Source: Manduca sexta (Eukaryota; Arthropoda; Insecta; Lepidoptera; Sphingidae). Taken from it: 64,000 nt of DNA. Location: contig NC_051131.1 of the NCBI RefSeq assembly GCF_014839805.1, forward strand, positions 8,048,913-8,112,912. Direction: 5' to 3'. Positions within the stretch are counted from its first letter, which is position 1. Each line of letters starts with the position of its first letter. Of this stretch, positions 41,601-44,600 are shown piece by piece. The notes under the pieces are model-generated. The model searched no databases and was not told the DNA's origin. It saw only the letters and a list, made by a program, of their open reading frames with translations. The position numbers and the translations under genes were made by a program.

Positions 41601-44600
41601 GATTATTAGTATTAAGTACTTTTAAATAAATATATTATTATGTATACATATAACGATTCATATTACGTGTTCTGAATGCTAAAGTACACCAAATGTAAGC
41701 TTTTTGTTTTCCTACTGAAGCAAGTTATCATCTGCATAACCGAACTAATATTATATTCGTGGATACGCTTTGGATTACGAGTTTGGCACTGTAAAGTATA
41801 CCCATGCACAGTATCGTAAGGTTACGTAGCAGGTAGCCGTTAGTGCGAGCGCGCGTACGTTGGTCGAGCGTACGCGTGCGTGCGTGCCAGTAATAATGTT
41901 TGTCTGTAATCTGTATGTACATTGTATAGCCAGTCGGAAGTGTTGTTATAGAACATAGAATGTGTAAGATATGTGGGTGATGCGTTGTGCAAGTCTCCCG
42001 TGATCTGTGTATATTTTGTAATGGGACCGTGAACTGGTGTATCGTTTCAATTTTTTCTAGCTCCGATTAGATCTAGATAATGCATGACTGGTGATTATTC
42101 TGTATAGAACAAACTGCAGCTAACATCCCACACATTCATTGTCGTTGTACAATAAATAACGTAGTGATACCGAGTGAGAGATTGCCGAGTGCAGCGCGGA
42201 AGAAAGGCCCGGAGTACATTTGTACACTCACACACCGGTACCAATATCAAACCGATAGTACAGACTACTAGGTCGAGCGACTTTACATTAATTTTATTAC
42301 TGTGATCCAAACGCTTATTATGTGTACCCATTCAGCTAGAATACGCTCAAGTATCAACGTACTCAATGAAATCAATAATGTATCCTGTCGATATTTCACT
42401 AGAATAATGTTTAAAGTTAAAAATATGCAATGCATAAATGTTAATTTTTGTTGCACGTTGTTTTTTGAGCGACGCTGTTTTTAATGCATGTTTTGTCTGT
42501 CTTGCATGCAGGGATTCGGTTTTGTAACATTCGCAAATAGTGGTGATGCGGAGCGAGCACGAGAGCGTCTTCACGGCACCGTGGTTGAGGGCAGAAAGAT
42601 AGAGGTGTGCATGACTCAATGAATACCATCCGTAGCACTATGTAACTTTAACATCCCGCTCCTACGCCCACGCCCACGCCCACCGCAACCTGCGCTCGTC
42701 TGCTCTGTAGTTACTGTCATGCTAGTCGCGCTAGTCGCGCACGCGCCGCCGCGCCCGCGCCCGCGCCCGCGCACGCGCCGCCGCGCCGCCCCGCGCACCC
42801 CGCGCACCTCGCGCCTGGCGGCCCGCGGCTCGGCCACGCGCATTAGCACTAAGTATGCCGATAATAATCCACAACAAACCTTATTTATTTTATCCCTTTA
42901 CTCTCTAGACGGTCATTTAAAATGCCGATCGAATGAGAGACTGTCTCACAGAGAATGTAGAAAGAAACGTACGAACGTACCGTCACATTGCCGCAGAGGT
43001 AAGACTGCTACAAACAAATTTTAGTTCCATACTATCTGTATATTTATTCCTATTTACAATATTCGAGACAATTGTCTATAATAAAATTATAGAGAGACAT
43101 TATTCAAATACAGTTACATTTCTGTTTTGTTAAATCAATTTATTTTTCCCTCACCAAGGCGTGTATGCAAATAAATCTGAATTTTACATTGTAAAATGTC
43201 AAACGTCTGATCAACAGAAATGAAACTAAACAAATGTTTAGTAAGTTTTTATCAAAGGTTACGATAGACATTTGACATACTCTTGGCTGACTTCGCGGTA
43301 TAATAAATACAAGTAAAATCAGTTCAACAACAGCAAAATTCTAATGCCACACTATTCACTGGAACCCCTTGAGACAGTTGCTGTGGATTTAAATTTTATA
43401 ATTATTGGTAATAACTTTCTCATATTAACTTAACTCTCAAGTATTCGTTTCTTAAAGTCAGCCAATTCTGTTTAGCGCTAGTAATATATTCTGACATTGA
43501 TTTTACTTCCAAATCAGGTTAATAATGCGACAGCGAGAGTGCAGACAAAGAAACCGCCGACAGTACCCAACGGTAAGTGTGGACTTTGTTATCTTTCCTA
43601 TAAAATCCATATTTAAATCTTGTCTATTGCTAGAAAAGAAAACATTCCCATTCGTACGTGATAAAATTTTAAAACTCTAACCGCAATGAAACGGCATTCT
43701 TGAGCCAAAATTGATATTGACCCCTCTCTCAATGTTTACATGTATGAACTGTTATGAAATATGATGCATCTTGAGATATTTTTTTTCTAATCCATCCAGT
43801 AATTCTGGCTAGAAATGGATCAGTTCCCACTTTGGGTGAGAGAGCTGAAATTATAAGACTCAGTGTTGTATTATATAAATGTAACGTACATGTTGGCTAG
43901 CTCCATTGTCTGAATGCAATTAGGTGAATGCTATTTAGAGAATGAGCCCGGTGTCGGCCGCCGGAGACAGTCTCCGGCGCAGTCCTTGCCGCCTACGCCA
44001 CTGGTAACGCACCGCGGCCGCAGAGCCGTGTCCAAACTGTTACATCACGAACGTTGTACGCACAGTGTCAAAGGCTGTCTCCGGCTTTCCTGTTTGCCTT
44101 GTGCTCTTGATACACTGTCTAAACGGATAACACTGATGATAGCCAGCTTCTTAGATTGAAACTAGGTTCACGCATTTTAAAATTCTATCCGTATCTTGCC
44201 ATTTTTGGAATGTCTTGAACTTCTCAGGCTTGCACTGTTCGTCTTTGAATTATGTAGTTGAGAATGTTACTTAGGTTGTATTTTTGTCTTGACGTTAGAT
44301 CGCTTGGTGCTCGCTTTAGTATTTTGTTTACATGTGACGTTCGTTGTTTCAGTGTGCGTCCAATGGCCGGAAGGTGAGGTCGCAACGTATGACTGTATGA
44401 ACCGTTTCATTTACATACTTATAACTAATTTACTTTATACATATAGTAACTAAGTGTTGAATTATGTTCGTATTCGATTTGCGGCCGGTTTCAATAAAAT
44501 GTCTAACTATTACCGGAAGTTAAAATGTATAATATGTACGCTTAGTAGCCATCGGCCCACTTTTCTGGTGAATAAATTCATGAGAGAAGTATCGATCCAA

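Follow-up and report, generated by a model that had tools for sequence, protein, structure and literature searches.

A probable Fox-type autoregulated RRM exon with TGCATG motifs at its splice sites in the Rbfox1 gene of Manduca sexta

Introduction

A feedback loop in which Fox (Rbfox) proteins act on the splicing of their own RNA-binding exon is known from mammals. Work by Damianov and Black from 2010 reportedly found, in both Fox-1 and Fox-2, Fox elements that overlap splice sites, and the Drosophila exon is said to have flanking Fox sites as well. In passages of PMC3126832, the mammalian exon is described as alternative and 31 amino acids long, and the Drosophila Fox homolog as having an equivalent alternatively spliced exon; the same passages report that, with Rbfox3 variants, inclusion of Rbfox2 exon 6 in 293T cells falls from 92% to 39-48%. 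The product of skipping, a delta-RRM form, lacks beta-3/alpha-2, binds RNA less or not at all, and behaves as a dominant negative, according to passages of PMC11380049 and PMC5577181. SR proteins and hnRNPs likewise act on their own pre-mRNA. Their route is unproductive splicing with premature stop codons, whereas Fox proteins make an in-frame protein (passages of PMC6884704).

Passages of a study of Drosophila muscle report that what Rbfox1 does to an exon is set by whether it binds upstream or downstream of it, and the passages found contain no statement on Rbfox1 autoregulation (PMC8742874). Those of a C. elegans paper hold nothing on fox-1 autoregulation (PMC7787662). We found no report of Rbfox autoregulation in moths among the top-ranked literature matches, which covered few subscription papers, and we make no claim of absence. 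Here we describe an Rbfox gene in the window, by which we mean the whole stretch of 64,000 nucleotides of Manduca sexta DNA that was analysed. The loop itself is known; new here are a lepidopteran instance with exact sites, in-frame skipping annotated in the same species, and indirect evidence for an old donor motif whose register drifts.

Results

The Rbfox gene lies on the plus strand of the window. Four Manduca sexta isoforms map there (X7, P0003; X8, P0005; X1, P0087; X5, P0097), and 9/9 exon stretches checked match the Manduca fox-1 homolog isoforms (NCBI proteins) letter for letter. The encoded protein belongs to the Rbfox (Fox-1) family and has a single RRM of Rbfox type, for which the best PDB matches are the RRMs of RBFOX1 and RBFOX2 (RBM9), at E about 1e-46, in chains that we take to be human. 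The moth RRM is identical to the RBFOX1 RRM of known structure (4zka) at 74/86 residues. The features around the RRM are as follows, with a slash marking an exon-intron boundary.

38873-39151, plus strand: coding exon of Rbfox1, first part of the RRM
39249-39302, plus strand: RRM exon before the cassette, 54 nt, phase 0, 18 aa, matching the isoforms
42081-42086, plus strand: TGCATG, 431 nt upstream of the cassette exon, within chance on its own
42485-42490, plus strand: TGCATG at -27 to -22, adjoining the branch-point-like run TTTTTAAT (putative branch point)
42503-42508, plus strand: TGCATG at -9 to -4, within the polypyrimidine tract and 3' splice site (TTGCATGCAG/GGA)
42512-42604, plus strand: cassette exon, 93 nt, 31 aa, RNP1 and second half of the RRM, absent in frame from X7 and X8
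42605-42613, plus strand: 5' splice site GTGTGCATG, with TGCATG at donor +4 to +9 (42608-42613)
43518-43572, plus strand: downstream exon, 55 nt, 18 aa, matching NCBI proteins, joined to 39302 upon skipping

The cassette exon is phase 0 at both ends and codes for GFGFVTF...RKIE, which equals Pfam RRM_1 positions 40-70, so that its peptide runs from RNP1 to the end of the RRM domain. These coordinates and the RRM_1 alignment bear out the first-pass annotation, which had described an exon of exactly 93 nt encoding RNP1. In length and boundaries it is the 93-nt, phase-0 exon of the Fox autoregulated class: its 31 residues equal the mammalian exon in length and coincide with the corresponding block in RBFOX structures. 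It thus resembles vertebrate RBFOX1/RBFOX2 'exon 6' in having the same 31-residue block and the same in-frame skip. The RRM exon of Drosophila Rbfox1 (A2bp1) is an equivalent alternative exon, known to us by its published description; Lepidoptera are another order.

The donor at 39303 is common to the exon-included and exon-skipped isoforms. Manduca X1 and X5 include the 93-nt exon, and X7 and X8 omit exactly that exon, in frame; RRM_1 is found by Pfam in X1 and X5, and X7 and X8 have no match at all. To gauge how widely this form is annotated, a protein database was searched with the exon-skipped form as query, and the best 120 of 5,224 matches were examined. In 78 of these 120, ERGSK is joined straight to VNNATAR, an exact deletion of 31 residues; the other 42 retain the exon wholly or partly. 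Because the query was the skipped form, 78/120 is not a frequency. Assigned to orders from their species names, the 78 listed proteins come from Hymenoptera (42), Lepidoptera (17), Diptera (12), Blattodea (3), Orthoptera (2), Hemiptera (1) and Thysanoptera (1). Manduca X7 and X8 account for two of the 78, and the 76 others are, like these, in-frame delta-RRM forms known as gene models. The lepidopteran skipped forms represent 12 species: Manduca sexta, Helicoverpa zea, Leguminivora glycinivorella, Aricia agestis, Bicyclus anynana, Bombyx mori, Pieris rapae, Pieris brassicae, Maniola hyperantus, Pararge aegeria, Vanessa atalanta and Vanessa tameamea. Skipping from 39302 to 43518, which had been proposed from the sequence, is therefore annotated in Manduca and 11 other lepidopteran species, in gene models.

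Most of the listed skipped matches are named 'isoform X', which we take to denote computed gene models in NCBI, and the exon might be constitutive in Lepidoptera, with its skipped isoforms being annotation artefacts. We hold this to be very unlikely. The same junction is modelled, among the listed matches, in 12 species of Lepidoptera and in six orders besides; one skipped form ('hypothetical protein PUN28_008089', P0044) was seemingly annotated by its submitters; and passages of PMC3126832 report the Drosophila and mammalian equivalents as alternative.

The exon has UGCAUG at its splice sites (42485, 42503 and 42608), as is reported for the RRM exons of Fox-1 and Fox-2. All four TGCATG positions given in the first-pass annotation stand, although the second of the near sites needs a small correction: the 42503 site had been placed 3 nt short of the AG (42510-42511), but only 1 nt separates the two, and 3 nt is the distance to the exon. 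Judged by their positions, the three near sites likely cover the putative branch-point region, the polypyrimidine tract and 3' splice site, and the donor. The GTGTG at 42605 is presumably also a weaker Rbfox motif.

From dinucleotide composition, TGCATG should occur about once in 3.8 kb on each strand, in agreement with an earlier rough estimate of once in several kb. Taken over its full length, the window shows no enrichment, with 29 matches on both strands against 31.7 +/- 5.7 expected. Around the exon, three or more TGCATG in 130 nt have a Poisson P of about 6e-6 to 9e-6. In simulations that kept the introns' dinucleotides, P was 1e-4 for at least two sites in the 30 nt upstream and 0.003 for at least one in the 12 nt downstream, and two upstream plus one downstream occurred together in 0/200,000 draws. 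Among the 186 AG-93 nt-GT configurations on the plus strand of the window, only the Rbfox1 exon has two or more sites. The three exon-adjoining TGCATG sites are beyond chance. The site at 42081 was considered as part of the switch and rejected, as three or more sites in the 3,209-nt intron have a P of 0.05-0.07, which is not beyond chance.

The cassette donor, GAG/GTGTGC, has 5/9 consensus bases, against 6-8 for the six other donors used by the listed Manduca isoforms. A seventh donor, which has no isoform support, scores 6; the donor at 45936 occurs in none of the listed Manduca isoforms. With G allowed at +3/+4, the cassette donor ties two of the six others, so 'weak', as this 5' splice site had been called, is fair but modest.

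As a proxy for conservation of the sites, we used short ORFs from genomic contigs that read from intron through exon into the next intron in the exon's frame. The query was the window's own 45-aa ORF (42485-42619). Of its 130 matches the best 120 were taken and 119 parsed; the remaining one, P0240, starts inside the exon and reads VCM after it, and was left out of the count. In the exon frame, TGCATGCAG/GGA reads C-M-Q/G and GAG/GTGTGCATG reads E/V-C-M. This evidence is codon inference through degenerate codons, mostly from unnamed contigs, and compatibility with a motif is not proof of it; the counts are also not independent events, because the sequences are related.

Among these listed matches, 92/119 ORFs allow a UGCAUG at the 5' splice site that starts at intron +2, +4 or +6. 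The downstream reading is VH[VGADE] in 48 (+2), VCM in 35 (+4), and VPA in 5 or VGAC in 4 (both +6); three of the 92, reading VPA and then an unknown stop, are compatible only with TGA as the stop. With duplicates removed, 69/96 are compatible at the donor. Equal windows deeper in the intron carry the donor fingerprint in 0/89, 3/75, 2/60 and 1/52 cases.

At the acceptor, the 53 ORFs that begin exactly at MQ were set aside, as gene callers choose ATG starts and so bias this class, and the count was made on the 63 ORFs that start at least three residues upstream of the exon. In 39 of these 63, C, G, R or S precedes MQ (25 C, 10 G, 4 R), which fits (N)GCATGCAG and with it a GCAUG abutting the 3' splice site. 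For the second upstream site, 21/42 ORFs are compatible, against 5.1 expected from shuffling.

The arrangement of sites is not universal, because 27/119 ORFs lack the donor fingerprint, including a class that occurs in fish proteins. The members of this class (P0174, P0180, P0215 and P0226) have a 19-residue peptide of a type that also marks fish proteins with names (P0226, P0241). Some few among the 27 (e.g. P0216, P0222) read no intron on one side.

Four ORFs (P0160, P0161, P0163 and P0164) read EWQ at the acceptor, with VGAC following the exon; their acceptor motif is absent and their donor motif is compatible in the third register.

The ORFs were assigned to animals by their exon peptide only, by comparison with the named proteins among the matches listed. 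Three ORFs have the lepidopteran peptide, and 3/3 read VCM downstream; upstream, two start at MQ and are uninformative, and P0124 is without the acceptor MQ, its CM standing two codons earlier. All three ORFs thus keep the fingerprint of the 5' splice site, which by codon inference supports conservation of that site in Lepidoptera, one of the points on which the first-pass annotation was to be judged. A second peptide is shared with 10 listed proteins, nine of which are named and all hemipteran (Lycorma, Cuerna, Macrosteles, Bemisia, Clastoptera). The two ORFs of this type, P0121 and P0122, both continue with VCMK after the exon; upstream, P0121 reads CMFCLSCMQ, identical to the window over these nine residues, and P0122 begins one residue later, at MFCLSCMQ. 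The peptide of 101 listed proteins, Hymenoptera, Orthoptera and Blattodea among them, is found in four ORFs, all of which read VCM downstream; P0123 reads CMQ upstream and the other three start at MQ. Six ORFs have the RBFOX1/RBFOX2 peptide of the PDB chains. All start at MQ, which makes their acceptor reading uninformative, and 6/6 read /VHV, which is compatible with the donor motif.

The moth motif lies at donor +4 (GTGTGCATG), whereas V-H-V in the RBFOX1/2-type ORFs fits GTGCATG, at +2 by codon inference. The motif on the 5' splice site had been put forward as a lepidopteran addition. This does not hold, because 92/119 ORFs are compatible with it, including 6/6 of RBFOX1/2 type and those of hemipteran type. 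Our data suggest that the donor motif is old and may have drifted in register (+2, +4, +6).

Elsewhere the pattern was sought with little return. Viral contigs gave 48 pattern matches with no relative among them, and no match to the site-plus-exon pattern. Prokaryote contigs gave at least 39 loci, all titled bacteria or archaea, with generic RRM similarity only. Rfam gave no match in the window at its gathering thresholds.

The motifs might be incidental, or serve another factor, with skipping set by proteins such as CELF/Bruno or Muscleblind. The number of TGCATG in the whole window, no higher than chance, fits incidental motifs, and passages of PMC11380049 report that CELF1 over-expression moves RBFOX2 to another dominant-negative isoform. 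Three sites on splice signals are not chance, however, and the donor fingerprint seen in 92/119 ORFs is rare in equal windows deeper in the intron. We regard incidental motifs or another factor as very unlikely.

Discussion

The moth exon is very probably an insect counterpart of the RRM exon through which Fox/Rbfox proteins regulate themselves, repressed by Rbfox1 to give a dominant-negative delta-RRM protein. The splice signals of the exon bear TGCATG, and therefore Rbfox1 can probably turn its own exon off and so yield an inactive protein. By analogy with the vertebrate system, we infer Rbfox occupancy, repression and a dominant-negative effect in moths. When active nuclear Rbfox1 is abundant, it would bind UGCAUG on the branch-point region, on the polypyrimidine tract and 3' splice site, and on the 5' splice site. 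Bound there, it would block U2AF/U2 and U1, and the 93-nt exon would be skipped. As the skip is in frame, a stable protein would result that lacks RNP1, alpha-2 and beta-4. Such a protein would not bind RNA and could still engage the partners of Rbfox, thereby damping Rbfox activity.

Alternatively, Rbfox may bind as proposed and the skipped isoform be a minor by-product, the main effect being to lower the amount of full-length protein. The dominant-negative activity of the moth delta-RRM protein is drawn from analogy, and control of level has a precedent in vertebrate Rbfox2, where NMD cryptic exons 5* and 6* lower the Rbfox2 level (passages of PMC3126832). Against this, control of level alone would need no 93-nt, phase-0 exon, and the skip is in frame in 78 listed proteins from seven insect orders. 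We consider it unlikely that the main effect is on level, though it is the strongest of the competing accounts.

Repression by Rbfox1 toward a dominant-negative form would extend the known mammalian feedback loop to Lepidoptera, with exact candidate sites. The first-pass annotation had suggested that the vertebrate feedback operates, or arose, in Lepidoptera. The in-frame skip, the annotated skipped isoforms and the sites support this reading. The loop is not new for insects, because the equivalent Drosophila exon is in print (passages of PMC3126832). More broadly, the data suggest that this layout, in which a regulator's motif sits at either end of the exon for its own RNA-binding domain, on the splice sites, has been kept since early animals. 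A loop in moths will be expected by specialists; the drift of the donor register and a second candidate switch in the same gene are less expected. With what is presumably a single Rbfox gene, insects could allow the loop to be studied in vivo, free of the three mammalian paralogs.

The second candidate switch concerns two alternative exons further downstream.

45158-45260, plus strand: first alternative exon, used in X5
About 45308-45437, plus strand: second alternative exon, used in X1, X7 and X8

In the 47-nt gap between them lies TGCATGCATG (45292-45301), past one donor and immediately ahead of the other acceptor. The choice between the two exons may thus be a second one under Rbfox control. 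In 240 listed proteins, a rough motif test found the first exon only in 98, the second only in 6, both in 0 and neither in 136; for the second exon the criterion was a narrow one that overlooked, for example, P0004.

One could envision a joint reading of the cassette donor and this gap, which we offer tentatively and hold to be somewhat less than an even prospect. The donor would be a dedicated site of competition between U1 and Rbfox, its motif drifting in register, and the second switch may share its logic. UGCAUG would have stayed on the 5' splice site across animals while its register drifted in 2-nt steps (+2, +4, +6). By keeping the donor weak, the motif would make the choice of exon a direct read-out of free Rbfox. 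At 45292-45301, Rbfox would favour the first alternative exon and repress the second, a prediction that follows the direction of the Rbfox positional rule for upstream versus downstream binding.

Several further features were seen in passing. The predicted Rbfox protein of Serrasalmus rhombeus (P0241) has the RRM exon twice, and that of Diaphorina citri (P0001) has the PKRLHVSN...MFG piece several times; these repeated RRM pieces may be artefacts of the gene models or of assembly. The intron that follows the 93-nt exon holds, near its start, a CGCGCC-type tandem tract (42736-42796) within a stretch of 79% GC (42700-42799). On the plus strand at 57660-62158, ORFs with cyclic-nucleotide-binding and protein kinase domains probably represent a gene for a cGMP-dependent protein kinase, which lies downstream of Rbfox1.
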